DNA from: Watersipora subatra | Lineage: Eukaryota > Bryozoa > Gymnolaemata > Cheilostomatida > Watersiporidae | Direction of reading: 5' to 3' | Length of the DNA: 64,000 nucleotides | NCBI RefSeq assembly: GCF_963576615.1 | Contig: NC_088711.1 | Location: forward strand, 58,818,248-58,882,247 | Shown: piece by piece, positions 16,501-63,505 of the stretch | How the letters are laid out: each line of letters starts with the position of its first letter | How positions within the stretch are numbered: the first letter of the stretch is position 1 | Translations under genes and position numbers: made by a program | The notes under the pieces: generated by a model | Told to the model about the DNA's origin: nothing | The model's database searches: none | Seen by the model: only the letters and a program-made list of their open reading frames with translations

Positions 16501-19500
16501 GCGGATGTTAGATTATCATTATGAATGCTGACATGAAGCATTTCCATCGAATAGTTTTACAACATTTTGTGCCCAAACACAGCATTAACGACATTTATTA
16601 ACCTTTAAAAAGGAGTGAAGGAAAAGTGGAGAAAAATGATAGTTTGACATTTAACTCGTTGTAACAAATGAAAAATTTGTAACAATCAAATAAAAATCAA
16701 ATTATTGCTGCTTATTGTTTCTGTTCATTGTCTTACGAAAAACCCGATATAGTGCATGATTTGTACATAACAATTTATGTTTTCAAGCTATGGCGAACTA
16801 TGAAAGATATGAATCACATTCATACATTTCATGTAAACTCCTTCCAGTAGAAACAAAAACTTATTATTTGATTTATTGTTTATTAATAGTTTGTGGTTTA
16901 AAAAACAGAGTTTGGCACTGAAAACATTAAAATGAATCTTTATATAAGTGTAAATATGAACTGAATCTCGTCTGACGTCATTTCCACCGCCATAATTGGT
17001 TGACTCTAATGTCACAACCATCTTTCTTCACTTGTACCAAATCTATTCATTGAAATAGCACTGAAATATATCCATACTGAAGTATTCAGGGTGTAAAAGT
17101 CTGTAGGTTGGCTGCCACATTCTATTTCAAAGGAATCACAGAGCCAAGTATAGGCTCCATGTCTGGATCAGTAAATATGCATCGGAATCTGAGTCATGAT
17201 TCATGATTCATCATTCATTAGTTTTCTTTTGTCTAACTTTGTCTGAGGATCTACTCAAATTCTAAAATTGTTTTAACAATTTTGTTCATATTTTCATTCC
17301 TTATTAGTGAAGAGAGCGAGTAAACACTGGCAGGTTAAGTGTTTGCTGTTTTAATGAATGTTGTTTGTTGTTTTTAGTTGCCTGACCCAACTAGTGGAAG
17401 TGGATCTGGTATGCCAATGTTAGTACAAAGAACCATCGCTAAGAGTGTCACACTCCTCGATCAGATTGGTATGTATTTGTTTAAGATTGTAAAAACAAAC
17501 CATTTAACCCAAGCTGTGTCAACATGAAACATTGAATGTAAACTAATGCATTGGGCGGCAAAATAAGAAAACAGGTTTGAGGCCCTCACGTGCGTTCAAA
17601 TGGGCATTTAAAGAAATTTCTTGAAAATTTACGAGTCTTAGTTTAGATTTAATTTGATTAAAGTTTGAGAAATTACTTAGAGATGGAAAGAGTGGCTGAA
17701 TCATTATTCGGCTGGTCTGAAGAGGCGGAGAGGGGAGATAAAGCATGCTCGAGGGGCAGCCAGTACAAACACTTAGTGATAACAATTAGCTTATACTCTC
17801 GACTGAATGGCTTGCCAATCGCTACTCACCTCTCTTCTATGCGCGAGCAATTTGATTATTACACATTTTACACCCGCCGCTTTGTTCTCTTTTTCCCTGC
17901 GCGTTTGCTTAAGTCACGATGTCGCCAGTTCTTTGCCTCTATTAGTCTCAATCATTCATTATGCACTGGCCCCGCGGCAGCACCGACGCTTATTATTGGG
18001 TCAGCCAGCTCACTGAGCATTTACCTCACGGCGTGACACATGGCTGCTTCTTACTCGCTTTCCGGAAGTTTCTAAACATTCCAAAAACTTGTCATTAATG
18101 ATGACGCGAACAAGATGATAGTTTGAAACCTTTCTGCATAGATCAAATTACAAATAAATTGTATTTTACTTTCTTTATTGTCATTTATGAACACGGATTT
18201 TCGTGTCGCTTTAGAGAAAGTTGTGGTCATGTCCGGTATGATTAATAACAATATTTTACAGCTTAATATAAGGAAAGGGACGGTTGTATCGCGTCTCTCA
18301 TCGTGATAGCAATAAAATAAAGATTAGCCTTTAGAAACTAGGTTTTATTAAGTTGCACTGTGACTGGCACCGACCTTCATAGAACCCTGGCTAACAAATT
18401 CGTGTCAGTTTAATACCCTTAAGCAAAGGTTGAGCAATTTGACAGCATGAATATCTGAACTCTTATTCATTTTCAAACTGAAAGTTGCCCGTGTTCAGGG
18501 TATGATTTGATTCCGTGTTTTTTCATTCTAGTGGTAACTTAGACTTCCAAGTTACAACTAACTTACATGTAGGTGTCGTCTGCTGAGACTCAGTTTTAAT
18601 ACTCTGTCAGAACAGGACAAGGTATTCACATCAATAAACACGTACAAGCTTTATGTTTCATATAATCTTAAAAAAGGCCATGCTCGAGGATTTTTAGAAT
18701 CGTTGAAACATTGTTAAAAAAAGCTTCACATTTTCCAGCGAATGGAAATGTGAAGTTTTGTGTTTATATGTTCATAAAGTGTGTTTATATGTTCATAAAG
18801 TGTGTTTATATGTTCATAAAGTGTGTTTATATGTTCATAAAGTGTGTTTATATGTTCATAAAGTGTGTTTATATGAAAAAAAGTGCCATAATTAAAATTG
18901 ACATTTTCCAAATGATTGTCTGTGTTTTTTCACTGTTTTTAAAGCTTAAAGGTTTTGCAAGTGATTGGTACAGCCATCGGTTTGATTCTGCAACCTGTCA
19001 GGTTAACATTATTGTTACGACACAATGAGTTATGGAATATGCAAAACAATTTGTATTGTTTTGTTTCTAAAATGCACTAATGTCTATTAGACTGTCACAT
19101 AAGTTAGGCAATTGATTAGATAACACCTGCTGACATCTGCCAGGAGCAACGCAACCGATGTTAATGAATCTCCTTAGTGGCTGTACTGAAAAACCATCCA
19201 TCACTGATCAGTTCTTTCCTTCCAGTTGTGATGAAACATTCAATCTTATACCTCCTTTTTAATCCTGTTACAAAAAGCAAAGCCTCTCGCATTGACGTTA
19301 TCCTCAGTTTGGTGAACTTGCTCATGCTCAGCAAAAATAATATATTATTTTAATATGGCATTTTGCAGGCACAGGGAAATATGGTAAGGTGTACAAAGGC
19401 CTGTACCAGAGCAGTCCAGTAGCTGTCAAAATATTCCTATCAAAAGACGTGAATAGCTGGGCGTGGGAGAACGAAATTTACACAACCCTTCTTCTCCGCC

Positions 19501-22500
19501 ACGAAAACATATTGGGATTCATAGCTTCTGATATGATCTCTTCAGACTCTGTCACACAGTTCTGGTAAGCTGTTCGCTGAATTGCTGGTTTGTTTTTTAT
19601 AACGCTGACGCTCGAACGCGTGTAGTAACCATAGCGATAAACAATATTTAATATGCTGTTTCATGTAAAGTAAAAGTATTTTATGGCAGCACATTTTAAT
19701 AGTGCTTCACGGTACTGTGCGGTCAACCACCAGAAGATGCAGTTCATAAATTCTTTCAACTTGAGTTCAAATTAGAACTCAAAGCACTTTGGTGGTTATT
19801 GAATAAACTCACCATTTTGTTTCGTTAATTTTGTTATTTAAAAAAACGTCAGTTTGTCAAACTGCGTTTGACAAACTGGCGTTTGTAAGATCGTTGCGCA
19901 TGCTCTTTATATTGCCTTGACATTTTCCTTCGCGTGTGTTATAGCTCTAGTGTTATTATCTATAGTAAAGTTATCAAATACCAGCCTTCTATATACATAC
20001 TTGTAAAGCTGTTCATGGAAACAAGGCTGAATCAAACTCTGAAAAGTTATGTTATAAGTGGCATGTTTTACCGCCACAAGACGAAACATAAATTTAATAG
20101 CTGTGCACCAAAGAGTTAAACTATAATCTTGTAAGAGGTGACAACCCTTTCTACTCTTGTTTTGCCAAATAAATTTTCGGTTTTTAGTAAACTTACAAAG
20201 AAATGAACCCGATGATTAACACATTTTTGTGGGTTCAAACATGGCCATGCATGTAATTTTTTTGTGTAATGTTAATTTATTGTTTAATTACCATGTTTTT
20301 TGTATTAAACCATGCTGCCAATATTTGCTCATGTTCATGCATGAATATTTAAATGATGTGTCTTTTTACAAGTTGGCGTCAACTGGTCATAACAATGGAC
20401 TTTCTGGTCACAGAACGCCTTATCTCACATGATTAATGAGTTTTTGGACTTTATAGGCTCATATGCCATTACCACAAGGACGGCTCTCTCTACGACTTCT
20501 TGAACGAGCCGTACAACGTAATAACCCCTTCACAGTGTCTACTTATGCTATATTCAGCCGCATCGGGGCTTGTACACCTCCACACAGAGATCTTTGGAAC
20601 TCAAGCTAAGCCAGCTATCGCGCACAGGGACATCAAGGTTGGTTTTTAGAAGTTCTTTATATCAATATGTGTTCATTTCAGTTTTGAATGTTTTTTGTTT
20701 GGAACTTGCTTTTTGAATGTCAAAAGTTGCCTTTGAATTAGTTGACGAAATTTAGTGGTTTTTCTCATCTGATAATCTCCTAGTACTGACCACGTCTGTC
20801 GTGATAGGATTAGAGAGAAATCACAGCTGTCTTATCTAATCAGAAAAAATTGTGGCACAGCCCACTTGAGTCTGATGGGAAGAATTATTAAGCACTTGTT
20901 TACTTCAAACATTAAAATATTGAAAGTGAATTTACACAAAACTTTTGTAGATTTTATCAGAAAGTATCAGTATTTTTTCTATCATTTGAGATTGTTTTTG
21001 ATGTTTGAGGTAATCTGACAACCAGGATGTTTTTAGATTAAAGTCTGCAAAACTTCATCGCGATTAAAACACTCAGATCATGTGAAGGTGCGATTATGAC
21101 ATCTATAGTTGCAAAAAGACCGACAGAATAGAAACGCGGAACGCTGCAACTTGAAGGCGATAGCCAATAACAACTATAGCAATGGTAACAACTAGTGATG
21201 CCATTTCGCGCATTTTTTTTTTTGAGCATTTGAACCGCAATCAAGTTTTTCGATTTTAATCTTGAAACATCCTGTCAGTCAGATCACCTCAATTTTCAAA
21301 AACAATTGCAAATGATAGAAAATTACTGATATTTTCTGATAAAATATGCAAAAACTTTGTGTAAACTTAGCTTTAAAACAAGATGGAAAGAGCAAAGTTA
21401 TCTCCTCTTGTATTTAAATTTTTCGTAGCTCAAAATATATTTAATGCAACCTTTTCAGGCCAATTTTATGAGAACATAAAAATACAATGCTGTTTTAAGC
21501 ATTATTGTTGACAATTTAAAATGTTCAAGTTCAACTTTATGTAGTAGTTGTACTAAGCATTCTACGGAACATTCTAGAGCAAAAACATTCTGGTGAAAGA
21601 GGATGGTTCCTGCTGTATAGCTGACCTTGGACTCTCTATGATGCACAAATCGCAAGAGAATGTCCTCCAGTCCAGCTCTACAAACACTATGGTTAGTACC
21701 ATCTACACTGTACTTCAAACACCCAGTCATTCAGAGATCTCATTGGCTGATTAAACCATGCCTTTAATAATGACACGGTCATTCCAAGGTCATAGCGAAC
21801 ATATTAACTGTATCTGATTCACAAGAGGTTTACTCTTGCTAACAAATATTTACAATGACTGATTAAATATTATAATATCAGTGGTTTGGCTCTGACTATT
21901 GCTTCTATTTATAAGTTTTGCACTGGTCTAGGAAAGGAATAGTTTTAATAGAACGTGTCACAACACGTCATTGAAAATACTACTACACATTGTTAGCATT
22001 ACATAAAGCAGCGGTGTAATGCAGTGATGGCGGTGATACTTATATAAAATGACATTTGATTTCAGGTGGGCACGAAGAGGTACATGGCCCCTGAGCTCCT
22101 CGACGAGACTATGAATCATGATGATTTTGAAGCCTACAAAAGGGCAGACATTTATTCCTTCAGCCTGGTTATTTGGGAGACCGCACAGTGCGCCATCAAG
22201 GATGGTAAGCATTGAAATTTTCATTTGAGTTTCACGATCTACGAAAATCACCAGACGATTCGATATTGAAAATAGATGATTCATGATATATCGCGATATT
22301 ATTACTATGTAAAAAAACTTGTAAATTTTTGTTGATATTTTTTTTATATTTCAACTTAAAAAGAAATTATTTCGTGTTCATAAGAATTAAAAACATGTAT
22401 TTCATGAATACCCTTGTGTTTAAAAGGCCATGGAAGGAGCCTATTATATGACTAAAAAGCCCGTGACTTTTAGTTCCAGTCCGACTGGAACTAAAACTCT

Positions 22501-40700: not shown

Positions 40701-43700
40701 TCTAGAGGTAAAAAACTGAAAAAGAGGTAAAAAAGTAGAGGTAATAAAAGTTTCAGCGCATAACGACACGGATCTCTGCAACGAGAACATTCTACTGTTA
40801 CTCACTACTGTTTCAGCCTGACTTCCTGCTCGTACACCAACATTTACATGCCAGGAAGGGTTACTCGAATGAGGATGGCGAATTAATTTCGTTTTCAAAT
40901 CTGGTAATTGAGATGAATGTGACCAATGGTGACCTTGACCCGAAAGTGAGTCTACTTTTACAAGTTTTGAGGGATACATCACGAATCTTTAAAAAATCTA
41001 TACAGCGCAACTTGGAATCATTGAAACGGTAAGATGTGAAATCGTCGGCAGCAGCCAAATCTGAGCTTATTAGACGCACGGAAACAAAGTGAACATTAAT
41101 AATAGCCTCTCTCGCAGTTGTACTGAGGCACACATTTTTTCTTATGCCATAAGTAGATGAGATGAAGATCGAATGTGGTTTCTAAGAGTGAACCTTTTAG
41201 TGTCAAAGAATTTTGAGCCTGGCAATGTGATGGAAGAGAAATGTGGTGAATAAAAGGAAATCAAACACAAACCTGGCAGATGGGCTGAGGTCGGGATTAC
41301 TGCTTCCCCGAAGGAGCTCCCAGTTAAGAGTGTCAAGGTCAAGTCTGTACATATCATTAACATAGGAGAAGCCAACAGTGCCTCCGAACAGATAGATGTA
41401 CTTGCCAATGTGGGTCATGCTCTGCAAACACCTTGTTATTTCATATAAGATGAAACCCTCAACATTTGACTACATTTAAGGATATGATATACATAACGCA
41501 TATATTGAGGATAAGATACACATATATTAAAGATATGATACACATATATATTGAGGATGAGATACACATATATTAAGGATAAGATACACATATATTAAGG
41601 ATATGATATACGTATATATTAAGGATATGATACACATATATTAAGGATATGATACACATATATATTGAGGATAAGATACACATATATCAAGGATATGATA
41701 TACGTATATATTGAGGATAAGATACACATATATTAAGGATATGATACACATAACGTTATAAGGGAAGCTCTTATTAGTAAACTTACTCAAATTATCCACT
41801 GGCAATGTGCCAGGCTAATAACAAGTGACGAGTAATTATCATTACCTCTCATTGTTTTTAAGCTGATCTTTAATCCCCGGGTAGCACAGCTAGTTATTTA
41901 ATAAAACCTGGTATTTGGTCAAAATCGGACAAAAATTATTATAGAACTCTAATCTGTAATGTTTTCTGCCGCTGTTGCTGCACAATAAAAATATGTGCTG
42001 CCAGTTAAATTTTAACCATCTGTACTCACATGGCCGTAGACTTTAGAAGGCCGTCGTTTCTCATCGCACTTAAGCTTGGTCCATCGATAATTTGTGAGGT
42101 CGCAGCAATACAGCTCATTACTGCGAACTTGAGCAAATGGATAGCCTGTACCGCCAAAGAGCAGTAGCCTATGGCCTATTAAGACGCCTACAACAGAAGG
42201 CAGAATGAATCAAATGCTAACAAACTTAGTACAAAACCAACCACTGCTTTAAACTAAAACTATCAGATGGAAACTTTCCAACTATTCTTTGATGTGAATA
42301 ATAGCAACACTAGTATGCTGGCAGTCCCGCGCGCCATGAGAGATCATGTGTAATAATTCTGCGCACAACTATTCTGTGGTGCTGCAAGGTGGTCTAGCGG
42401 TGCATTTGGTAGTACGCTTAGCTGCTAATTTCGGATACCAGAGTTAAATTCCTGTGTGATGCATTTTATCCTAATGATGTAACCTTGGCCTCGAACAAAA
42501 GGACACGACTCTTATTATAATAAAGATTGATGAAATTGTAAAGCTAGCTTTCGCTGTTTGACCACATAATCACAATTGCATGGCTATATGCAATGGCTGG
42601 TCTAAAACGATACATAAACTAGAGGGTAGTTCTATGAAATGACACCAAAACATCCTTGAATATGTGAGACTAAAATACTCCAGTTTTCATGAAATCTATA
42701 GCTTTGTTAAAACATTGAAGCATTGAAAAAAGGTTTGCTAAGACATTGCGAAAACTTGAAATATAGTGTAGGGCAAATTTTACATATCACGATTGTGTGA
42801 GCGATCACTTAAACTTTCTTTATTAACTGTGCAATGCTGGGCATTCAGCTAGTCTCTAGCCACTGCTGGAGACTAGGAAAAAAGATTGCACCATAGGAGA
42901 TCTGAACTCACAACTTTCTGCTTGATGGGCCAACATTCTAATACCAGCACTGATCGACCACTTCAGACTAATTGTGCAAATAGTGATTCGCTGATCTTTA
43001 TTGGCAAACCTGACGATCCCTCACAGCACACCAGACTACCAGAGTACTTGGCATATTTGCCAAGTCTCCCGGTTTGGCCAGGCCAGGACCCTCCAGTTTT
43101 TTAAGTCAGTCTCCCTTTTGCACAAAATCTCCCATTTTCCTCCAGCTTTTTCAATAAAAGTAGTGGTTTAATTTTTTACTTGCCGTTTTCCCTTTCTTAA
43201 CTAGTTGAGAGCCCTCATCATCATACAAACTTAGCAACAATGAAACAGATCGCTATTAAACCGTATGTTTGCCATAAAACCTGGGCTACTCAAATTTAGC
43301 AACATTGATGTCTAACGATTTGTTCTACAGTTCTTTATCAATAAACAAAGAATATACATGAAGCTGTGACATATCGTTGGTAAACGACCATGACCTCACA
43401 TTGCTAGTAGAGTACCTGAACATTAAAGAAAATCGTCGAGGGGCCTCCTATGTAGGTACTGATAGAGAAAAAAAAACATCACAAAGAAATCTAGGCTTTA
43501 GATTCAACTACTACATTTGCCCTCAATCTCACGCTTTTTTTTCTCAACTACAGTGAAACTCGGATAACTCAAACTTCAAGGGACCGAGCAAAAGTGTTCG
43601 AATTATCAGAGTGTTCAAGTTATCAGAGCACTGTCACAAGTCCATGTATTGACTTATTTATTAGTAGACACATGAACATATACAAACTATAATATAAATC

Positions 43701-48768: not shown

Positions 48769-49190
48769 ATTGCAACATAGGCAGTTACTAACATGACTGC
48801 TTATGTGCATGTCAAAATATGAAATAGAAAACCTGATAGAAAAAAGTACGATAAAATCATGAGACAGTTTTACTTTTCACGATTACTTCAGAAATGAATC
48901 GCTAGTCACAAACCTTTCCAACGGCTAAGTCGCCGTTTCCACCAGCAATAAAGACTAAACAATTTTAGCTTGCTACGTTCTAGATATGTCGACACCCACG
49001 TTTGAAAACCTAAGCAATATTAATGATAACCGTAGAAGTCTACCTCTATGATGGTAGCTCTATGATGGTTTACTATATCTATGTTTAAAACCAACGGTAA
49101 TCATTCTGCAACATCACGATCTTGTCGCTATTCTGACTGCGTATGCTGCATCTATGTTTCTAGAGTGCCCATTACCGTGTATTGTTAAAC

Positions 49191-51200
49191 GGTGACAGGT
49201 CTATGTTCCGCACGCCCTATGTTCCGCAAGGCCCTATGTTCCGCACTTTTCCGCAAAATCGGATAAAATTTCTGAAAAGGACAGACAACTTCTAAAGCAA
49301 ATGCAATTATTGCTGTTTAAATTAAAACCGTCGTTGTGAAATCACGCCGTTGGGAAAATACAAACCGCTCTGCTGAACTTGAGAGAAAATAAAAAGATCT
49401 GACGAATGAACGTTCACTAAAATTTAGTAGTGATAATACACGAATTATCAAATTAGAATACGCAAAAAAAACCATCTTTTTCAGTCATTTTTATTTTAAA
49501 GTAATATAGATAAATTCAAAGGCTACTTCATTTTTTATTTAATTATAGACAAGCGTTCATGTAAGCCTACATTTCTAATTATAAAAGCCATAAACTCTAT
49601 ATATCTCACTCCATAACAATATTAACATAATTATGTAAGCCTATGTTACGTACTTTGTAATATTATACAATTTTTCTTCTAGGCGTAATGTTCCACCATA
49701 TGATATTGTATGCCAAGAAAACCGACGCTCTACACTAAATGATATAGTAAATAAACATAATCATGAGGCTATGTTCCTCACTCAATTATAATACTGTGTA
49801 AATATAATCATGAGGTTTATACTCCTCACTCAACTATATTATAAATAAAATCATTAGGGCCAAAGTTCCTCATTCGATTATATTATAAATATAGTAATAA
49901 GGGCCTATATTCTTAATTCTATTATATTATAAATATAATCATGAGGGCCTATGTTCATCACCCTAATATATTATAAATATAATCGTGATGGCCTATGGTC
50001 TACACTCTGTTATAAAGATAACCCTGATGGCCTGTGTCCTTCATTCTATTAGCATAAAAATAAAAACCGTGAAAGGCCTATGTTCCTCACTATACTTTAT
50101 TATAAATATAATTATGTTATATTATAAATATTTTATTAGTTAAATTATTTATATTATTAGCTATGTATAGTTACGTATATTATAAACATAATATGTTTCT
50201 CATTTTATTGTAATATAAACATAATCATGAGAGTTTTTGTTCGTCACTCTATTTTATTATAAATGTAACAATGTTGTATTATATATATTTTATTAGTTAA
50301 ATTATTTATATTATCAGCTGTATATAGTTATGTATATTATAAAATAATATGTTCTTCATTTTATTATATTATAAATGTAATCATGAGGGTCTCTGTTCCT
50401 CACTCTATCATGTTATAAATATAATAATGAAGGCCTATGTTCCTCGCTCAATTATAATATAAATACAATAATGAAAGACTATGTTCCTCACTCTATTTTA
50501 TTATAACTATAACAATATTATATTTTTAATATTTTATTACCTAAATTAGTTATATTATTACTAGTTACGTATATAGTTACTCACTCATAACTATATATAG
50601 TTATTTATATTATAAATATAATATGTCCCTCATTCTATTATAATATAAATATAATCATGAAGGTCTCTGTTTCTCACTCTATTTTATTATAAATATAATA
50701 ATGAGGGCCTATGTCCCTCACTCAATTATAATATAATTATAATCATGAGGGCTTATGTTCCTCACTCGATATTGTACAACGTACTCGCTTGAGCCTATGT
50801 TCCTCACTCGAGATATTACGATATAAGTATTCACTAGGGCCTAAATTCCTAACTCCATAACGAGCATACTACACTTGCTTGGGTCTATGCTCCTCACTCA
50901 AGATTGCGCAATATACTCAAAGGGCCTATATTCCTCACTTCATAATGAGCATATTATAAGCCCTTGGGTCTATGTTCCTCACTCGAAATTGGGCAATATA
51001 ATTAAAGGGCCTATACTCCTCACTTCATAATGAGCATGTTATACTCACTTGGGTCTATGTTCCTCACTCAAGATTGCGCAATATACTCAAAGGGCCTATA
51101 TTCCTCACTTCATATTGGGCAATATACTCCCTTGGGCCTAGGTTTCTCACTCGATTGCTTGGGCTTATAATCCTCAATTGGTAATGCGGAACATGCTCAA
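49191..51200. repeat. Left composite terminus of the MULE
   Basis: About 2 kb. It starts with three CTATGTTCCGCA units; 49.77-50.75 kb has degenerate units of about 45 bp (CTATGTTCCTCACTC with AATATAATCATGAGGGC); 50.76-51.15 kb has longer units with TTGCGCAATATACTCAAAGG and CTTCATAATGAGCAT. It is the inverted counterpart of 60.87-62.51 kb. Confidence 0.9.
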
Positions 51201-51744
51201 AGAGGCTATGTTAGTCACTCAATCCTGATATAAATACAATCAGTAGGATCTGTGTTCTTCATTCTGTTATATCATGAATAGTCATATGGCCGAGGTTTTT
51301 CCTTGATATTGCATGTTAGTCTTGCTAGATCATATAAAGCTCTTAAGATCTCATAAAGTCAGACACGGCCATTTTTGGCATGATTGTGAGGCGCAGCACA
51401 TTGGAATGCTCCCTCGCATACTTTACAGCCTAGATGTGAACTTTTGCTATCATTTATGCTGCTTTAGGCAGCACTTGGCACCAACTATCACTGAATGAGG
51501 TTTCATCCTTGTCATGTAATGGATTGAAAAATTATTAAATATCAAACCTGGTGTGATAACCATAATTTGACATCAAAAACTGATTTGTGATCAATTGCAA
51601 AAATCTTCTGAAGTTTTTGACACATGATATTATTGTTCAGCAAGCTCATATCTCTACTACCCTTCTACTAAAAATATGTACTGTTTTGTTTTTTAGGACC
51701 AAGTTTAATGATTCTGTGAGGTTTGAAAGAAGACTACCACCTGT

Positions 51745-51785
51745 GACGCGCGGAACTGTGACGCGCGGTACTGCGACGCGTGGGA
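51745..51785. repeat. 15-bp tandem repeat, three units
   Basis: CTGTGACGCGCGGAA, CTGTGACGCGCGGTA, CTGCGACGCGTGGGA. CpG-rich in an AT-rich setting and in frame within an 83-codon plus ORF (VTRGT repeats) that has no known family. Confidence 0.85.
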
Positions 51786-51983
51786 CAAGAATAACACTAC
51801 GAAAAATCCAGAATTTCTCTACGTTTTGTAGTATTTAGACAACAAATTGTCATGATTTGGAGTCACAACATCTACCCATATACATGTGGTCAACCAACTA
51901 ATAATTTAAAATTAGTATATATTATACTTATTTTATTTAACCGTGAATTATAAGACACATACGATTCAAAGATTGTGAGACTT

Positions 51984-52684
51984 TTATGCAGTAAACAATT
52001 TTTTCTTAAAATCGTCATATTCTGCCGTTATCATTTTCTCATTTTTTAGTAAAAAGTACCACAGTGACCTGATAGTTACCCCTGGTGCAATAACTGGAGA
52101 TACTTTAAGAGGAAAGTTCATCTGGGTGGTTCTTTTGTCGTTGGGGTTTGGCTGCATGAACTTCTTGCGTGCACTGTGCATGTACTTTATAGTTCAGCTA
52201 CTTTCATTGGCCTTTGCAATGAGAATTTCTCCCGTGTTGACTTCAGAGTCATAGGCCAATGCGACCAGCATTTGTGGTGAAAACTCCATTAATGTTTGTG
52301 AAGTATCTCTTGTGGTAACTTCTTGATTAGGTTCGCTGCTCTGTGTGTGTGGAATTGGCTGCCAGGTGGGATCAATCAATCAGAGCAACATAACTATTTT
52401 TTAATTGCAATGTGATGGCACGATCAAATGCCATGAATTAAAGGCACCATGGACCAGGGTTCTTTGCACATTTGCGCAGTTTCAGTAATCTTATCTTTTG
52501 AGATAGAGAATATCTTTATTGGTTTCGCTGATTTGGAAGTTATTGTTGTTGCAGCTTTCGCAAATGACTGCAGAGTTTACGACATACTTTTTTCCGGTAC
52601 ACTGCCATTAGCACCTGTTGTTTGATGCTTTTCCTCAATACCATCTATTACACCTTCGCCATGCGATGTGATTTTTGTAATCAT
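51984..52684 (-). pseudogene. Broken reading frame inside the MULE
   Basis: Minus strand. It starts with ITSHGEGVIDGIE, then after a TAA reads LQSFAKAATTITS and SAKPIKIFSISKDKIT; later MLVALAYDSEVNTGEILIA, then TGA where a Trp would fit, then TIKYMHSARKKFMQPNPNDK to a stop at 51984. The order SHGxGxxDG ... AYD ... K(F/Y)MH resembles the C-terminal part of uncharacterised proteins found in many invertebrate transposon-rich loci. The last two pieces are in one frame, split only by the TGA at 52194-52196. Confidence 0.5.
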
Positions 52685-52699
52685 ACATTAAAAACACAC

Positions 52700-54790
52700 A
52701 TTCAGTTCAAAGATTACCTCACAATTTGACGGGCATCACGCCAAGTGTTTGTATCAGTAGGGTAATATTGACCAACTCCATGTTTTGAGTTCGAAACATC
52801 GTAAATTAATTCTAATTTTTTATTTCTCTCAAAGAAACTGGCTTTTTTGCCTTGGAATATCCAGCGATGTTTTCCCATGCAAGGTATCAAAATGAAATCT
52901 CAAACAAAGGCAGACATCGTCATATTATTAAAATTGTTCGGCGTGTCACAAATACTTCCATGTGCCCATAAAACCGAAACTAGCTATATTTTCAGCTCAT
53001 TAGCAAGTTTGGCTGGTCAAACTCGCCAATTCTCGCCAAATCTCGTTTTATAGATAAAAGATTTTTACCTCAGATAGCTTAGGAAGAACAGGCTGCAACT
53101 AAATGCACTAAAATTGTGACACGTGGAACAAGCTATTCTTTGCTCACGCGAATGGTAAAAAAAAGTTGCATTTGTTAGGAAAAAACGCCTAAGCTAAAAA
53201 TCTACTTTTGTATTGATTATAAAAGAAAAGCAAAATTTATTTCAGAATGAATAGCAAAATTTTAAAAAAGATGACCTATTGTGCCGCCCGTCACACACCA
53301 TACCAGAAAAATCTACTTGCATACCCCATATCATCATGAGAGATTATTTCATTATAAAAACTTTCTTGTTTCTGTATGTCTGAACATGTTTACTCACTAA
53401 TTGACAGAAAATTATGATCACAAAAAAGTAAAAAAAAATTGCCTATGTGTGTGACCCTATGTTTGGCTCTGCCCGGTCGGATTTTTCTTGCTTGTTCTCG
53501 CGTAAAACAACTCGCTGTTGCTCACTGGGGTGAGCCATGCTGAAACTGACAATTCAGTTATGTATACTGTATACAAAAAAAAACCTTTTTTTTGGCATTA
53601 TACAAAACATGCCTTTATAAATGACCTCAAGACTCAAATTTTGGAGTAATACATTTACACTCTTTCCTTTTAGAATACAAAAACCTGTGGTGAAACCTTA
53701 TGATGCTCAAGTTAATCAATAACTTTTGGGAACTTGGGTTTGGGAACGTTCAGGAAATTCAATCTTATTGCATTTTAACCATAGTGTGATGAGGTATTCC
53801 AAGTAGTGATGAGATTTTGAATTTAGCGATGTATAATGTATTTGTGTTTACTTGCTACCAAGCCAGCAACAGCGCATTTTAAGCAGCTTTGGAAAAATTT
53901 GCAACTGACCAAAGAGGTGCAGTTTATCTTACAACTACCAGCAAGTATGTTTGGGGCCTATGCTTATGTGATGTTAGGCCTATTATAAATGTAGGTTATT
54001 CAGGGAGTCCTGTTTGTCATTCTACTCTAATTCAACTTTGCTTATGCAGGCTCCCTGGGTGGTGTTCATAAAGCTGAAAGATCATATTTCACATCAGAAG
54101 GTTATGCTCGCAGCAACAATAAATATGTCGTATGTTTCAGCCAACTCATACTCACTCAGGCTCTGTAACTCTGAGTCTGATCATCAGGGACCACCGAGAA
54201 AGGAGATGGCTGTAGATAGCCGTTTTCTTATGCCTATGGTGTTTTTATAAAAGCACCTATACTGATCATCCCACTGAACACGTAGCCAGCAGAATAAATC
54301 AGGCTTATGGGGGAATATGGGCACTAATTCAGGACTGACAACTGCCAGCTTATCAACCTGAGAATTGTTTTTCACTTTTTTAGTTTTCCTTGTGCCCAGC
54401 AGCAGTTGAGCATAAGTTATGTTGTGACATTATTATTTGTGTTCATAAAAATTAAGGCTATTGGAGGGTATGTCAGAAAAGTGTCTTATTGCAGCCACAT
54501 TTATATACATGTAGTCGTAAACATTTGCTCCGTTTGATTGTCTGACTTAATAATTTAAGTCAGAAGTTTAAGTTCTTAAAATAATGTTTTTACTTTGATA
54601 AGGTTTATCATCACCGCTATGTACAATATCTTTAACATACCATGAAATTTTTAGTAAGTGTTTGTCTCAACACACAAAGTAATGACATTACATGAGGTCG
54701 AGTTTTTCAAAGCATTCTCTTTTTGCAAATTAAAATAAAAAGGCAAGTAAAAATAATAAAGCATTAAGGCTTTACTGTATACATTTGTAG
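52700..54790. other. MULE interior, no gene recognised
   Basis: Short open frames on both strands without recognisable motifs. The missing N-terminal transposase exons would be expected here, but I could not identify them. Confidence 0.5.
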
Positions 54791-56713
54791 ATGCTCAAGG
54801 TAGTCAACGGCACTGAAGAATTCAGTGCCTTTGAGGTTGTTTGCGACTTTGAGATCAGTCTGCACGAAGCAATAAAAGCAGCAGGACCCAATGTAGAAGT
54901 ATGTGGGTGCTATTTCCACACCACCCAAAGTATTTCTTGAAAGGTTGCAGCTTTTGGTTTGAAATTGGCATACAATAAAGATTGTAATGTACTAGAGATC
55001 GTACAAACATTCTCAAGTATAGGATCTTTTTCGCCACATCACGTGATCGGGGCATTGAGTAAGTTGTATTAAATTAATATGATTATTGTAAGGTAGATTT
55101 TTGTTGTTATACATTTTTATTAATTTCATTTGAATATTATTTGACATGATAAACATTTGAACAAAAGCTGATCAGCAATTGTGCGCATTAAAAAGTTATT
55201 TAAAAGTTAATACACCTGGTTATCGAAAAATGGTGGTGATAGGACTAACGATCAAATCAAGAGTGGAAAGTATTTTACTGATTAATAAGCAAACTACAGT
55301 AGAAGTTGTTTAATGCTATAGTAATCAATGCAGTTCTATGCCTGGAAGATTAGCTCTACATAGAGTATTTGGTTAATAGAATCTTACAAAAATATATGAA
55401 ATGAACGCTTACATTAGTATAAATGGCAATTCTTTACAAGTGGATAGGCATTTTTAAGGCAAAAATTGTATTATTATAAGTATTACTCATGTATAAGTTC
55501 ACCCCGCTATTCCAGAATATTTTAGAAGCACTATAATTGTATCGATTGTTGCTATCCGAAAAAAAATATAGCTTTCAAAAGTTTTTTATTCGATATGATA
55601 AATAGAGTTCATCGGCATGTTTTAAATGAGGTTTTGGTTGACTCACTTATGATATTGTTTGTGAATGGATCACATGCTAAAACAAAAGTTAAGCATTGCC
55701 TGTTCTCAATTGGGTGTGGGCTGCTCAGGAGGTAGTAAAAAAACAAACAGTGCATGCATATCTATAGTCTATTTAGAATTTACAGTTGGAATATTTCGCC
55801 TAATGTTTTCCGAATATATTACTTGTTAAACTTAAAACCGATCGGTAGTAGTTCAGCATAACATTAGCGCCTGCCATATTATGATTGAAAGTGATGTACT
55901 AAGCATGTTCAGTAGAAATATATATGGTATCTTCGCTGATATTTGATACTGGTACTTCTGTGAAATAGCTTTAACATTTATATGCTGAACTATCATTAAT
56001 ATGAGTGTTTGTGAATCCGTAGACAAATGCATGCTTCGTCGCCATTAAATTTGCTATTTGGCTTATTTGCTATTTGCTATTTATGAAAGGGTTTCAATAA
56101 TAACGGCTTTTGCTGGAAAGTCTTTTGTCTTCAACAACCATGAACAATTGTTTTTTATTTATCCACATTGCTCGTGCCATCAAGATTTTGTTAATTAGTA
56201 ACTGGATAGTATGAACACGAGCTATATGGATAAGAATTGATTTTCATATTTTGTAAAATAGATTTTTTAAATATTTTACTGCATATGTGCATATAAAATT
56301 TTATGTAGACAACAGTGCGAGTGCGCAGTCCTCAGTATTTAGGCTAAGATCCTAAAAGGCTAGTGAGCTAACAGCAATCTGCTGTAAATCAGAAACAAGC
56401 TTCCACAAGGTTAAAATAAAAACTGTATGCGATTTTCATCCAAAATTTTGGGTTGAAAAAGATAATTCGTATAGCTTAATCATATTATAAGCTTATTCAG
56501 CAAAGTGTTTTTCCTTAATGCCTAGCCTGGAACAGTCATTTCAATGCATGGTTGGAAAAAGCACCCTTCGATATAGCTTCTCATTTCATGTTTAGAGGAC
56601 GAAGAAGTATTGTATAAACAACAAGCCGCAGCAGCTGCTGAATATAGGAACTATCATTGTAATCTACTTTCTTTGGCAGACTTTGTGTGACATAATGATT
56701 AATTTGTATTGCT

Positions 56714-56768
56714 GAGTGAGTATAAATTGTGTCATAGAGCAATAATTGCTCTATGACACAATTTATGC
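56714..56768. repeat. Hairpin, stem about 23 bp
   Basis: ATAAATTGTGTCATAGAGCA and TGCTCTATGACACAATTTAT around a short loop. Confidence 0.9.
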
Positions 56769-57480
56769 TTAATACTTAATTACTTATAGGCATAGAATTT
56801 ACCAAGTGTAACTGAAAAAAACCTCATAGTCTCAGATTTTGATGATTTTTTAATATGTTGTTGCCTATATTGAAAAACGCTCAAATCCCAAATTTTTATC
56901 CTCTAGGGTCATCGGTTCAGGTGCTATGAGGATTTGAACTTTGACTATTTGTCGCCTGAGTTTGAGGGCAAGTCACATCTAGCTTACTTTAGACTCATAT
57001 AAATTCAAGAATATACAAGTTAGAGGTCTAGATTTTTATTTGTCTACACACAATTTCAATATTTACACAAACAAATAGGTTTGAAATTTTTCGGATGAAT
57101 AATGTGGGAGATAACTCCGAACAAGAATGACCGAAAATGCTATTTTAGCCACTATTCAAAAACAATTATCACTATTAACATATAATTTGCCATTGTTTCT
57201 GTTAATATTTCTGAAATTCTCCAGGCCTCAGCTATCCAAAACAAGTCTCATCTTCTCTGTCGATTCATCGGGTCAGCATCTAGAAGCCATACAAGATTAA
57301 GCTCTTTGTAGAAATACTGCAAAAGTAGAAGTCAAGGTCAACCTGTGGTTTCAACAAAGTCACACATTTTTCTCATGTTTCATACCAATTAACATATGCC
57401 AATTTTATTAAAACCATCAAAAGTTTGTGTTTCAGATTGTAAAATGCTTAAAATTGAGTTCCAAATTCAATGCCCTCCAG

Positions 57481-57962
57481 ACACCTTTGTAAATCGCCTT
57501 AATTAAATGAGATTATCCCCCCTTATCAAGCTTTAACTTGGCTGATTATTATCCTATTGAATTCAAACTTGCTGTGTGCTTGTGGTTTGTGATAGTAATG
57601 AGTTTTAAAATATTTTCTTAACTTACATTTCTCAATGTTATCCATTGTTGTAGCTTGGTAAAATCTATGCCTATAAGAAATTCTATTTGACGCATACATG
57701 TATATATATATATATACATGTATATATATACATGTATATATGTATGTACGCGTCAAATAGAATTTCTTATAGGCATAGAATTTACCAAGCTACAACAATG
57801 GATAACATTGAGGAATGTAAGCTAAGAAAATATTTTAAAACTCATTACTATCACAAACCACAAGCACACAGCAAGTTTGAATTCAATAGGATAATAATCA
57901 GCCAAGTTAAAGCTTGATAAGGGGGGATAATCTCATTTAATTAGGCAAATTTACAAAGGTGT
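57481..57962. repeat. 482-bp near-perfect palindrome
   Basis: Arms of about 217 bp (57481-57697, 57745-57962) differ at only a few bases, around a TATATA/ACATG centre. Ends ACACCTTTGTAAAT and ATTTACAAAGGTGT. Each arm encodes the same 40-codon frame (MDNIEECKLRKYFKTHYYHK start) pointing away from the centre. It lies between exons c and d of transposase copy 1. Confidence 0.92.
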
Positions 57963-58159
57963 TCATATATTCCACTATTCATATATATGAATAGTGGAAC
58001 TGATAACAAACCCCAAAATGCTTTTTAAATGCATTTTTATTTATATGCAATAACTTTCATTTCAGGGAAACTGATAGTTCGCAGGCGGAAAAAATAACAG
58101 AAGTTAGAGGAACAGATTCAAAAGCTCAAGAGACAGCTGGAGCAGGGAAAACGAACAAT

Positions 58160-60127
58160 AAATAGCTACTGGCGGGAATGCTCTGGAGGTTGTTTGTGAT
58201 TTCGAGATTAGTCTCCACGAAGCGGTAAAATCAGCATGGCCCAATGTAGCAATATGTGGGTGCTATTTCCACTTCACCCAGAGTGTTTCTCGGAAGGTGG
58301 CAGCGCTTGGTCTGAAATCCGCATACCAGAAAGATTGTAATGTTCAAGATATTGTACAAAAGCTATCAAGTATGGGTTTCCTTCCACCACATCACGTGAT
58401 CGGGGCATTTGAGTGAGTTGTATTAAATTAGCATGACTGTTTAATGAAGATTTTTATTGTTATATATGTTTATTTATTTCATTTGAAATTCCTATAGTAA
58501 AAACGTGGTCTGCCTTAACATGATAATCATTTGAACAGTTGAAACTGGGTTGTGAAATGTATATATCCTTGGATAGTTTTCTCAAGTTAAACACCTTTAT
58601 TAGACAAAGTCCAGGCAACAACTGTTACAGGTGCGATGACTAATTATGCAATGAACTGGCTTATTAAGATATAAATTATCTAAACATACAAGTAGGAGAC
58701 AATAATGATGTAAGGTCACAGAGAAAGGGTTATAGTACCATTTTCAACATGAACAAATGCTGATCAGCAGATGTGTGCATTAAAAATTGGTTTAAAAGCA
58801 AATAGGCCTGTTTTCTGAAATATGGCATTGATAGGATTAACCATCACTTTATTACTAACGAATATATTGGATGAAACCTTTCATCTGGCTTCTTCAAAAA
58901 TAATATAACTTATAAGTATAATATAACTTCAGTGTAAATTCAAAGCAACCAAAAAATATGAGCTACCAATTGCCATGAAACAGTTTTACAAAGTACATAT
59001 TTTGCAAGAGAGCAAATGCAGCAAACGTTTGAGTTCGCCACCTATAAATCCAACCAAACATCTCATAGTATGATTTCCACCATGCTTCCTCGATGACATC
59101 TGAATCCTTAATTAATATTTTCTCATTTCCTATTGTAGTAGCTTAAAGAGCTCAGTAGCTGTAAGAGAGGCGGCGAAACATTTCCCAGCCATGGAGATGT
59201 TACTAGCCTATTTCCATGATACCTTTATACACGGAGTCATTCCAATCAGTGTATGGAATGTATATTTTCGAGACATAAGCACACGGACTAACAACTATGT
59301 GGAAGGTGAATATAAAAAGCTGAAACAAATTACAATATCAAAAAACTCAGACATCGTCCTTTACACAATATTAGTGATGCTTGGAAATTAGGCTTCCCCA
59401 GTTATTGCATATTGTTTACATTTGTGGAATATGTTGAATCTTGTTAACAAAAATATCTGTCAGCAAAACAATTCTCGCCAGCAGTATGCAGGCAGATTTT
59501 TATTCTTAAGACTATATTCTATAATGATACATCATGTGCCGATATCCTTTGATTCTGATTCATATTATTCTGCTGTTTTAACATATTGAAAACCAGCAAA
59601 GTTTATTGACACTCAATTTATAATTTTGTCTTCCTCAAAGTAATTCAATAAAAAAGAGAAGCGTTCAAAAAGCCGCTGCCTTCACTACAAACTTTAAGTA
59701 TTTTACTGCATATGTGCATATCAAACATTACGTAGACGACAGTGCGAATGTGCAGTCCCCAGTATTTAGGCTAAGATCCTAAAAGGCGCGTGAGCATACA
59801 GCAATCTGCTGTAAATCAGAAATAAGCTTCCACAAAAAAAATAAAAGCTGTATGCAATTTTTATCCGAAATTTTGGATTAAAAAAGATCATTCGTATAGC
59901 TTAATCATACTATGAGTTTATTCAGCAGTGTTTGTCTTTTATGCCTAGCCTGGAACAGCCATTTCAATGACGTCGTTGGAAGGAAGCACCCTTCGATATG
60001 GCTTCTCATTTCATGTCTAAAAGATGAAGAAGTGTTGTATAAACAACGAGCCGCAGCTGCTGAAAAAGGTTTGTCTTTTTACGAAAAAATATAGGAACGA
60101 TCATTATAATCTACCTTCTTTGGCAAA

Positions 60128-60160
<33 letters not shown>

Positions 60161-60355
60161 CTAAACGCTTTTCAAATGCATTTTTATTTATATGCAATAA
60201 TTTTCATTTCAGGGAAACTGATAGTTCGCAGGCGCAAAAAGTGGCAGAAGTTAGAAGAACGAATCCAAAAGCTCAAGAGACAGCTGGAGCAGGGAAAGCG
60301 AACAATAACTAGCTATTGGCGAGCGATAAAATATGCTGTGAATGAAATAATTTAA
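58160..60355 (+). CDS. MULE transposase, C-terminal half, copy 2
   Basis: Four exons with matching phases: 58160-58412 (donor GTGAGT), 59139-59305, 59949-60068, 60213-60355 (stop TAA). Motifs: VVCDFEISLHEAV with the catalytic-Asp region, CGCYFHFTQSVSRKV (the C-x-x-H of MULE transposases), MGFLPPHHVIGAFE, WNVYFRD...RTNNYVEAW (catalytic Glu region), VGRKHPSIWLLISCL, and a Lys/Arg/Gln-rich coiled C-terminus (WQKLEERIQKLKRQLEQGKR). No stop or frameshift interrupts it, but the 5' exons are absent: the frame begins at the duplication junction. Confidence 0.78.
60127..60162. repeat. TA microsatellite
   Basis: Pure (TA)n of about 34 bp, inside the last intron of transposase copy 2. Confidence 0.95.
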
Positions 60356-60867
60356 AATTACCCGCAGTCACTTCATAAAAATCTATTGTATATTGTATTT
60401 ATTGATTCAGTTGATTGTCAGAGAACACTTTTTGTATGTAAAATTATTTATTAAAAAATAGTTCATACCTGTTGGGGCTCTCAGATGAAATTGCTAGAAC
60501 AAGATAAAATCCTAAATATATCGGCTATATAATATCCAAATAATCCGTTAGTTACTTGGCTGGTTTGTTTATGGTAGATGTTTAAAACACATTTTATTAT
60601 TATAGTTACATAATATATTATTACATCGATTAGCTCATTTCTTTTATTTAAATTAGGCATGTGAAGAGTAGAACATGTAAAGTAGAAAGAGGATATGTAG
60701 AAACTTTTTTAACAAGCACTTGTTGCAATTTATGGCACTAATGTCACATGAGGATATTTTACCAGTTTCCACTAAATAAATTACTAGACAATGTCATCAT
60801 TTAGTTGCTAGATATAACTACATGTACTTGGTTCTGTTGCTGCTTTTTTGAAATACCTATTAAGTAA

Positions 60868-62509
60868 GGAACATAGGCCCTTTGAGTATATTGTGCAATC
60901 TCAAGTGAGGAACATAGACCCAAGCAAGTAAAATATGCTCATTATGATGTGAGGAATATAGGCCCTTTGTGTATATTGCGCAATCTCAAGTGAGGAACAT
61001 AGGCCCAAGCAAGTAAAATATGCTCGTTATGATGTGAGGAATATAGGCCCTTTGTGTATATTGCGCGATCTCAAGTGAGGAACATAGGCCCAAGCAAGTA
61101 AAATATGCTCATTATGATGTGAGGAATATAGGCCCTTTGTGTATATTGCGCAATCTCAAGTGAGGAACATAGGCCCAAGCAAGTAAAATATGCTCGCTAT
61201 GATGTGAGGAATATAGGCCCTTTGTGTATATTGCGCAATCTCAAGTGAGGAACATAGGCCCAAGCAAGTAAAATATGCTCGTTATGATGTGAGGAATATA
61301 GGCCCTTTGTGTATATTGCGCAATCTCAAGTGAGGAACATAGGCCCAAGCAAGTAAAATATGCTCATTATGATGTGAAGAATATAGGCCCTTTGTGTATA
61401 TTGCGCAATCTCAAGTGAGGAACATAGGCCCCTTGATTATATTGCGCAATACGAAGCGAGGAACATAGGCCGAAGCGAGTGTATTGTACAATATCGAGTG
61501 AGGCCCTTTGACTATATTGCGCAATATGAAATGGAAATATAGGCCATCATGGTTATTTTTATAAAATAATTGAGTGAGAAACATGGTCCTCATGATGATT
61601 TTTATACTATTACTGTGTGAGAAACTTAAGCTTCAATCATTATATTTATATTATTATCGAGTGAGAAATATAGGTCCTCATGATTATATTTGTAGTTGGT
61701 TAATCTTCATTGAAATAATATTAATATCAAATATAATATTATTTGCGCTTCTATTTGCAGGCAAAAATAAATATCTTCAATTATATTTCATGAGAAGGAA
61801 ACTCCCCATCTGTAGGTGAGATTGTCAGATGTAAATAACGAAACGGTTATGTAGAGAGGGTAATTACAAGTAGCAAAATAAAATCATACTGGCAGCAAAC
61901 AGAAATTGCTTCACGGCAAGACTTATATGCAGAGTTTATATACAAGACAATACAGAATATATTGTAATTATTAATTTAATCACATTATATTAAATAAAAT
62001 AATTACAAATATAGAATTATATTTGTAATATTTTTGAGTGAGAAACATATACCTTACTGAGTGCATTGCAAAATATTATGTGATGAACATCAGCCCTTGC
62101 GAGTATACTGCGCAATATTGAATGAGGAGCATAGGCCTCCATCATTTTATAGATGTTATTATTCAGTGAGGAAGATATGCTTTGATGATTTCATTAACAA
62201 TCAGCGAGTAATATACGTTTTTTGATTATATTTACAAAATCAAATAATCAGAAAACAGGCTTTAGTTTTTTTTAATTTAATTATAATACAATCGCTTGGA
62301 CAACTTATACAGTACGCATTCCTACATAAACTTGTTTATTGTATTCTTGCGTGAGAAACATCGGCAGAGCTAATGTGCTGAGACGAATCATCAGTCACTT
62401 TTACGTCCGCAACGTCTAGACAGCAATAAATTTACTGATTGAGCCGTAGCGATTTGCGGAACATAGGGCCTTGCGGAACATAGGGCCTGCGGAACATAGG
62501 GCTGTCCCC
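60868..62509. repeat. Right composite terminus of the MULE
   Basis: 60870-61430 holds about six near-identical 85-bp units (AGGCCCTTTGTGTATATTGC, GTGAGGAACATAGGCCCAAG, ATATGCTCGTTATGATGTGA); 61.5-62.2 kb has more decayed units; 62462-62500 has three GCGGAACATAGGG units ending at the terminus. Inverted relative to 49.19-51.2 kb, with higher copy identity. Confidence 0.92.
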
Positions 62510-62934
62510 TGTTAAACACGGCCCTGAACGTGCCAAGCTAGGGAAAGCGTGTCGCTGTTATTTGCTTTTGCTGTATTTACGTTAGTTTTGAATTAAAATT
62601 TGTCAGGTGCTGGTTTATTTGCTGAAAAGTCTTTTTTTACGCGCTAATTACTAACAAATATATCTGACAACTATCCTTTCAAATGGCACTGACTGAATTC
62701 CTGCACTTGCTATTTAATAGGAAGTTCAGAGGGCAGCTACTTATGTTGTATAAATGATAAAAATTTGCATGCACTCAAACAAAAAAAGGAGAAAATAATC
62801 TGTCTTTTGTTCCATATTTTTATATACTCCTAATCTACTAGCTTTACCCACTAACTTTATTCGCTAGCTTAACCAACCGTCTTTAAGCTCAGACACCAAT
62901 ATAGCCGGAGCCTAACAAATTGTAATATACAACA

Positions 62935-63505
62935 ACCTAATGACTGTCAATATGGATTTAAGGCTCAAAGAGGTTGTGAGTCGAAGCTGTTGTTTCTGGT
63001 CTTAGAGTATGTTAATAATTTTGATAATAGGATTCAAAATGATATGTTTGTACAAGGCATTGCCAAAGCCTTTGATGTGGTCTCCCATAAAAAAAAACTG
63101 GTCTATAAGTTAGCTAAAAATGAAATACGTCCACATTTAGTAGACTGTATTTCTAATTGGTTTGGGGAGCGATCGTATTTTGTAAGCATTAATGGTGGCA
63201 CTTTCGTTCTGCATAGGGTAACGTCGAGAGTGGCTTCAGGTTCAGCGACGGGATCGCTTTTGTTCCTTATTTACATAAATGTCACACCTGATACAGTGCA
63301 AAACTCGAGGCAGAAACTTTTTGCTGATGACTTGTTATTTCGTTCTGTTGAGAGCCCTGTAGGCATTGTTGCTATGCAGCAAGACTCGGACCATTTAGTA
63401 AAATGGGCTGATGATTGCCAAATGTGTTTCCACGCTTGTAAGTGTGTAACTATGTCTATTGTCAGATCAAACTGCCTGAAACAGCATTCTTACTACCATA
63501 TGTAG
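62935..63505 (+). pseudogene. Non-LTR retrotransposon reverse transcriptase fragment
   Basis: Open from the upstream CQYGFKAQRGCESKLLFL to stop. Motifs in RT order: KAFDVVSHKKKLVYKL, IRPHLVDCISNWFGERSYFV, GSATGSLLFLIYINV (normally GVPQGSVLGPLLFLIYIND), FADDLLF catalytic box, and WADDCQMCFHACKCVTMSI. This order is that of Jockey/CR1/L2-type LINEs. Endonuclease and 3' end are missing, and the region before FADD is altered, so it is a dead fragment. Confidence 0.8.

Follow-up and report, generated by a model that had tools for sequence, protein, structure and literature searches.

The segment at positions 49191 to 62509 of the window (the whole stretch of DNA analysed, 64,000 nucleotides) raises the question of whether two oppositely oriented tandem arrays are the ends of a single mobile element and, if so, what the arrays do. 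The segment was found to belong to a DNA transposon present in many copies, of which it is one (13,319 bp, + strand), internally deleted and with a sibling, C3_0.24, elsewhere. The sequence TGTTAAAC is perfectly duplicated at its exact borders, with the left target-site duplication at 49183 to 49190 and the right one, which directly abuts the element end, at 62510 to 62517. The outer 55 bp of both ends form a collinear inverted repeat of 92.7% identity, of the kind expected at MULE termini: the left tip (49191 to 49245, +) displays three CTATGTTCCGCA-type repeats 16 to 17 bp apart, its first 60 bp being identical in the 10 fully read copies, and the right tip (62455 to 62509, −) is an inverted copy of it, likewise with three repeats. 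The duplicated border and matching outer ends of the preliminary description were thus confirmed. A scan of the genome (784 Mb) with the tip pattern detected 119 tips, 59 in forward and 60 in reverse orientation, compared with 0 and 0 for a control pattern; 100 of the 119 were listed, all within two mismatches. Target-site duplications were checked for 35 tip pairs, the window's own included, and found to be (i) perfect at 8 bp in 29 pairs, all 29 of different sequence; (ii) perfect at 9 bp in one and at 7 bp in another; (iii) of 8 bp with one mismatch in one; and (iv) missing in three. The duplication length of 8 to 11 bp known for MULEs was therefore observed, and other copies carry the 8- or 9-bp duplications that had been suggested as a check; the prospect that no other locus would have the same paired ends did not hold, as many loci do. 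No consensus indicative of a target-site preference was detected among 26 insertion sites. Empty sites were recovered for another copy, C55 (19.4 kb): in all eight paralogous repeats fetched, the target was present once, with the joined flanks matched at 1 to 3 mismatches in 72 bp around a single GTTTGAAT.

Inward of the tips, arrays of ~44-bp and of 85-bp units were identified in both arms by Tandem Repeats Finder. The left arm (+) holds a diverged outer array of ~44-bp units at 49751 to 50767 and an inner array of 85-bp units at 50749 to 51154, with two cores per unit 41 and 44 bp apart; the right arm (−) holds an inner array of 6.6 copies of an 85-bp unit, 97% alike, at 60867 to 61431 and an outer array of ~44-bp units at 61534 to 61691. 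The left arm measures ~1.96 kb from the tip to the inner array edge and the right arm ~1.64 kb, in agreement with the earlier estimate of about 2 kb and 1.6 kb of tandem repeats in opposite orientation. The orientation was evident from CTATGTTCC, which occurs 22 times in the window versus 0.34 expected in shuffles; all 22 sit in the arms, 10 on the + strand in the left and 12 on the − strand in the right. Allowing up to one mismatch, each arm holds 18, all on + in the left and all on − in the right, with none of opposite polarity in either; with two mismatches allowed, opposite polarity appeared 3 times and once in the arms. Cores follow one another every 16 to 17 bp at the tips; in the 85-bp arrays their spacing is 41/44 bp, and in the outer left array it is less regular. 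The array classes common to both arms lie in opposite orientation and reach 83% identity over 373 bp; inward of the tips the arms are not a base-for-base inverted repeat. The inverted termini are long, repetitive internally, and variable in length, a trait shared with Foldback elements; however, because only the 55-bp tip is collinear and the arrays differ between the arms, we describe the ends as Foldback-like without classing the element as Foldback.

The satellite-like structure of the units could alternatively reflect independent satellites around an unrelated region, with TGTTAAAC repeated by coincidence, which the preliminary description had named as grounds for its refutation. Counter to this, the 29 perfect 8-bp duplications all differ, and C55 has empty sites. 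In addition, a search with the 85-bp unit yielded 505 matches, reported for 40 of 134 candidates; the listed ones, which were the best, fell into 25 loci, of which 22 were inside elements with duplications and three within 1 to 8 kb of a right tip. The listed arrays are restricted to elements or their vicinity and hence are not free satellites, so this explanation, which we consider exceedingly improbable, was rejected. The arrays are also variable in length, with the right 85-bp array ranging from 6 to 36 units across nine copies.

The nature of the transposase was examined in three fuller copies of 18 to 20 kb, which carry FLYWCH and MULE exons. FLYWCH (PF04500) was detected in a fuller copy at an E-value of 3.9e-7 (30.6 bits versus a cut-off of 23.6). 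After exons were joined by hand at approximate borders, MULE (PF10551) was detected at an E-value of 3.5e-9 (37.4 bits versus a cut-off of 27.6) and FLYWCH at 2.1e-6, above its curated cut-off; the MULE catalytic domain scores below cut-off in exon D alone, as does the MULE piece in the part of C10_1.2 that matches 54791 to 55060 of the window. The transposase of the fuller copies is split over exons, as read from exons A to E, with a complete frame, including the first and last coding exons, that is putative; exon E of copy C2_8.3 has a 2-base gap. An N-terminal FLYWCH zinc finger is characteristic of Phantom/Muta and was found in a fuller copy, and by their FLYWCH and MULE exons the fuller copies can be assigned to this type; the window copy is without FLYWCH. 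By comparison with other copies, the window retains exon D (58176 to 58414, +; first 32 nt missing), with a CDFE motif that presumably includes the catalytic Asp of the transposase, and exon E (59144 to 59589, +), with RTNNYVEGE and a stop at a point where the frame continues in several other copies. A diverged extra copy of exon D, 82% identical to that of C10_1.2, is located at 54791 to 55060 (+). A Pfam search of the reverse transcriptase-like ORF adjoining the window element and of two ORFs from inserts in other copies returned no family. An 8-bp duplication, and nothing else, would also fit a hAT element; the MULE domain above the curated cut-off, the FLYWCH domain, and the one 9-bp duplication speak against it, and with this transposase a hAT identity was rejected as having a negligible chance of being correct. 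The earlier reading of a 13.3-kb MULE was instead borne out by the FLYWCH and MULE domains, the 8-bp and rarely 9-bp duplications, and the empty sites of another copy, and we regard the identity of the segment as a MULE-type transposon copy as nearly certain.

Since three transposase exons of the fuller copies (A to C) are missing from it, the window copy is a non-autonomous deletion derivative, a point absent from the preliminary description. Its sibling C3_0.24 likewise is without exons A to C and the start of exon D, and has in common with it a near-perfect palindrome (57481 to 57962; arms of 239 nt, 95% complementary). The two were distinguished by 17 substitutions and 15 gap bases over 13.2 kb, together with one unaligned stretch of 121 against 58 bp, and have different target duplications; thus, the exon-deficient sibling, with a duplication of its own, moved in trans. 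Copies C10_1.2 and C9_3.07 share 99.83% identity across 8.3 kb, which suggests that the family was recently active; outside the right array they match at 99.5 to 100% in long aligned stretches, and only two exact right-array units are common to both. Overall, we estimate a probability of about 0.8 that the window holds a non-autonomous, internally deleted, recently active Phantom/Muta-type (FLYWCH plus MULE) transposon copy with ends that resemble those of Foldback elements without matching them in full.

As for the arrays, transposase from the fuller copies would act in trans by cut and paste and would recognize the CCTATGTTCC core at each tip. Inward-pointing repeats of this core, one every 41 to 44 bp, would be accessory sites for binding, increasing occupancy and aiding the joining of two ends separated by more than 8 kb. 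Binding of transposase to the core arrays, as raised in the preliminary description, is plausible, and we give a putative accessory role an even chance. Consistent with this role, CTATGTTCC is common to the tips and the arrays of both arms, and its polarity is uniform within each arm. When the 44-bp and 85-bp classes are compared, a core of 19 bp, with limits chosen post hoc after the sequences were seen, keeps 15 to 16 of 19 bases versus 9 of 22 for the spacer. Also in favor, copy C2_61.0 has both arrays although it shows none of the five exons, and among the 100 listed tips (of 119) convergent neighbors are never less than 8,169 bp apart. Against it, the second core of the 85-bp unit is one base off the tip core in the right consensus and two bases off in the left one, and tests of core conservation within the arrays gave no significant result except for one low rank (3 of 85). 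Among 85 circular shifts of the 85-bp unit, the variability of the 10-bp core was not below that of the other positions (rank 47 right, 34 left), and a 14-bp core ranked 21 right and 3 left. The left and right 85-bp consensus sequences have 9 differences, 2 of them in the 20 core bases, which is about chance. With spacer-anchored alignment, identity was 0.58 in the core versus 0.54 in the rest for the left 44-bp array and 0.75 versus 0.64 for the right, which has 6 units only.

That a clear core constraint was not found inside the arrays would also be expected if the transposon is real and its arrays are neutral passengers of slippage or unequal exchange in long arms, with no role in transposition. 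The 6- to 36-unit range of the right array in nine copies, and the siblings C10_1.2 and C9_3.07, near-identical except in that array, likewise favor this explanation, to which we assign a minority share of the probability; however, arrays were kept in both arms of the 10 fully read copies, also in one (C2_61.0) with none of the five exons, each arm in the window has a single core polarity, and the core was kept while the spacer class changed. The arrays may instead bind an element-encoded or host regulator and act as a promoter, enhancer, or anti-silencing platform, like VANC sites in Arabidopsis VANDAL MULEs. According to the portion of the report cited, the sites bound by VANC are short motifs lying within tandem repeats, with variation from one related transposable element to another (PMC5735166), and the arrays here flank the gene and vary in length; the presence of the array core in the tips as well speaks against a regulator platform, no second, VANC-like protein was noticed incidentally, and we find such a platform quite unlikely. 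Returning to transposase binding, a stronger form, which we consider doubtful, is that the arrays are an obligatory long-range scaffold, with dozens of phased sites (41/44 bp, ~four helical turns) loading a multimeric transposase that pairs ends 8 to 37 kb apart. Were this true, the MULE would escape the usual length penalty, and array length tuned by rapid expansion and contraction would be explained, as would the absence of array-less miniature derivatives: among the 100 listed tips (of 119), no array-less pair was found. In the part cited, the authors of a Galileo binding study describe a binding-site function of Foldback and Phantom tandem repeats as untested (PMC3688188). The question is directly testable in this family because closely related natural copies have 6 to 36 array units and distinct duplications, and many empty sites are available for one copy.

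Known systems were compared on the basis of the portions of the reports cited. Long, internally repetitive TIRs are also found in Galileo of Drosophila (P superfamily), in which the THAP domain of the transposase binds secondary sites in the tandem repeats; the transposase superfamily is unrelated, and the likeness is in workings only (PMC3688188). VANDAL21, with VANC, is similarly a DNA transposon with fast-changing tandem repeats of a short, protein-bound motif, but is a plant element whose repeats sit in non-coding parts of its interior, where an anti-silencing protein binds them (PMC5735166). Closer is Phantom (group 20), with which the family shares FLYWCH (in some but not all Phantom members), a MULE transposase, animal hosts, and 8- to 10-bp duplications; TIRs of 18 to 613 bp are given for Phantom and, unlike here, kilobase arrays are not listed in the part cited, which also places Muta with Phantom (PMC6446971). 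Muta1 of Aedes aegypti measures 3.2 kb and has a TIR of 145 bp, nine repeats of 12 bp, and more than 300 putative non-autonomous derivatives; Muta families are called type 2 Foldback by the authors, and 10 of 12 long-TIR families there have subterminal tandem repeats (PMC5225508). Like Muta, the present family is a MULE with duplications of 8 or 9 bp, no evident preference for a target sequence, long TIRs in which subterminal tandem repeats accompany a tip motif, and non-autonomous derivatives; unlike Muta1, the three fuller copies read are 18 to 20 kb, the window arms are ~2.0 and 1.6 kb, the units are 44 and 85 bp with up to 36 in one arm, and an array-less pair was not found among the 100 listed tips (PMC5225508). 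Tm1 of Meloidogyne, also Mutator/Foldback with a Phantom-type transposase, a variable number of tandem motifs in its TIRs, and 8- to 10-bp duplications (mostly 9 bp), differs in that its repeats are ~14 bp, with 1 to 9 per TIR, and its outermost 7 bp do not form part of the inverted repeat (PMC3169594). Thus, the earlier proposal of an animal MULE family was correct, yet the suggestion that the combination is undescribed was overstated, because the animal MULEs Muta1 and Tm1 have tandem repeats in their TIRs. The arthropod MULEs of a recent survey, as excerpted, extend up to 9,972 bp with TIRs up to 1,193 bp, a length that copies of the present family far exceed (PMC13359780). Overall, the family follows the same plan as Muta1 of the mosquito and Tm1 of the nematode, both at much smaller scale (PMC5225508, PMC3169594), and since these smaller relatives share its design, it represents a known kind of element at an unusually large size.

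The element at 49191..62509 (window copy, 13,319 bp) belongs to a genuine MULE family of the Phantom/Muta type that has moved recently and whose ends, built of arrays, are exceptionally long. The preliminary description had reported a TGTTAAAC duplication at both borders, matching outer ends and inverted arrays, all of which were confirmed at the positions claimed. The core motif CTATGTTCC was found 22 times in the window compared with 0.34 in shuffles, with (i) 10 occurrences in the left arm, all on the + strand; (ii) 12 in the right arm, all on the - strand; and (iii) zero elsewhere. The genome (784 Mb, 239 contigs), in which the window is G000:C4:58818248-58882247, was then searched with the outer ends, as the preliminary description had proposed, and many loci with the same ends were recovered, many of the matches being identical. 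The left outer 210 bp gave 40 matches (40 of 117 candidates scored) and the right outer 210 bp gave 42 (40 of 129 candidates scored). A tip pattern (at ≤2 mismatches) was detected at 59 forward and 60 reverse sites genome-wide, with 100 of the 119 listed, while a reversed control gave 0 + 0.

Borders were inspected in 35 left-right tip pairs, the window copy among them (sets of 9, 20, and 6). Perfect 8-bp duplications were present in 29 of the 35, and all 29 sequences differed; no target-site consensus was seen among 26 sites. Three further copies displayed a perfect 9-bp duplication (C7_5.1), a 7-bp duplication, GAGCGAC (C3_44.7), and an 8-bp duplication with one mismatch, read by hand after a register shift (C1_35.6). 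The 3 pairs without a duplication were C6_55.8, C10_29.7, and C2_8.43, whose ends lie 78 kb, 64 kb, and 20.7 kb apart, respectively. Duplication-bearing copies ranged from 8,169 to 37,062 bp; long, unrelated open frames (1405 aa and 593 aa) occur inside C4_15.7 and C4_45.9 and are probably nested retroelement insertions. Four tips of one variant sequence were also observed on G000:C7 near 1590489, 1724363, 1833436, and 1951331, at ~110-135 kb spacing, which may represent a segmental duplication or another subfamily.

Copy C55 (19,418 bp) sits inside a repeat, and its flank gave 41 matches, own locus counted. All eight of the paralogous sites fetched from these 41 had joined flanks and a single GTTTGAAT, with 1-3 mismatches per 72 bp. 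These sites, all paralogs of the locus of C55, a copy other than the window copy, constitute the empty-site evidence; they carry the target once, and therefore tips and arrays inserted as one unit, duplicating 8 bp.

Five transposase exons were identified in copies C10_1.2, C9_3.07, and C2_8.3, the fifth of C2_8.3 having a 2-base gap; the GT/AG borders of exons 1-3 and of the exon 4-5 junction were assigned visually. The exons encode a FLYWCH zinc finger, a linker, an IDGTF motif, a CDFE stretch followed by FH, and RTNNYVEGE; the individual catalytic residues among these are putative. When joined by hand at approximate borders, the exons scored 37.4 bits for MULE and 28.3 bits for FLYWCH, both above curated cut-offs. 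The FLYWCH exon had 19 genomic matches, of which 7 were full-length and 5 of these stop-free, and by position all 5 lie within copies bearing a perfect target-site duplication. A diverged exon-4 duplicate (82-83% identical) was present upstream in 9 of 10 copies read. Window 54774-56637 and 58186-60062 form a diverged pair, 82-87% alike where matching, with a similar pair in several copies; this sequence likeness suggests that the 3′ transposase region was duplicated within the element long ago.

The window copy is without exons 1-3 and the start of exon 4. Against its sibling C3_0.24, it shows 17 substitutions and 15 gap bases across 13.2 kb, plus one stretch that does not align (121 vs 58 bp). 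The exon loss is identical in the two copies and their duplications are different; therefore, a transposase-deficient derivative moved recently, with the enzyme presumably supplied in trans. Copies C10_1.2 and C9_3.07 were 99.83% identical across 8.3 kb. A 482-bp near-perfect palindrome (window 57481-57962) lies inside the stretch common to the window copy and C3_0.24, and copy C2_61.0 has coding-like sequence similar to it.

Outside the element, window 41499-41752 is a distinct 22/46/68-bp tandem array (83-88% matches), and window 62873-63505, adjoining the element, is a 210-aa open frame with no Pfam match that looks like a reverse transcriptase fragment. Window 13000-22200 contains receptor-like exons, including an Activin_recp-like ectodomain exon (E 0.0055, below cut-off), an SGSGMP motif at 17399, and a further 12-residue protein stretch at 22066, which together resemble a putative TGF-beta/BMP type I receptor gene and thereby suggest that the host is an animal.

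The 85-bp unit, another search proposed in the preliminary description, gave 505 reported matches, and the best ones, those listed, fell at 25 loci all in or near elements: by position, 22 inside elements that have target-site duplications and 3 at 1-8 kb from a right tip. The smallest copy (8,169 bp) has both arrays and none of the five exons seen. The right 85-bp array had 6 to 36 regularly spaced units in the 9 copies counted. Only 2 exact array units were common to C10_1.2 and C9_3.07 despite a 0.11% difference over a 4.7-kb unique stretch; thus, array length and order can outpace the rest of the element, probably, we infer, through block loss and gain from a longer array. Between the window copy and C3_0.24, a six-unit array order was kept with one base changed.

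The tip core recurs through both arms of the window copy with a single polarity per arm, is found within the 85-bp arrays at alternating intervals of 41 and 44 bp, and has a few stray matches in the interior of other copies. This polarity and spacing suggest accessory transposase sites, as demonstrated in vitro in tandem repeats of Galileo (PMC3688188), and we give a probability of about 0.5 that the array cores are such sites. Counting for a binding role, 15-16 of 19 core bases, within limits picked post hoc with the sequences already in view, were kept between the 44-bp and 85-bp classes vs 9 of 22 spacer bases. Counting against it, the core was not clearly better conserved than spacers within one array, and 2 of 9 differences between left and right unit consensus sequences fell inside the core; the arrays may instead be neutral passengers, a tentative possibility, or, improbably, have another regulatory role. 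No array-less pair was found among the tips listed (100 of 119), a further point for the binding role, and the binding-site reading of the preliminary description is plausible.

Among known relatives, Muta1 makes 8-9 bp duplications, carries nine 12-bp repeats in its 145-bp TIR, and is mobile in yeast (PMC5225508); Tm1 has TIRs with tandem motifs and a Phantom-type transposase (PMC3169594); the Phantom TIRs listed span 18-613 bp, with Muta grouped with Phantom (PMC6446971); and the arthropod MULEs listed reach at most 9,972 bp with TIRs of at most 1,193 bp (PMC13359780). An animal MULE with kilobase tandem arrays was not found in the open literature searched. The element is a Phantom/Muta-type MULE, a known kind, and its exceptionally long array-built ends are a new variation.
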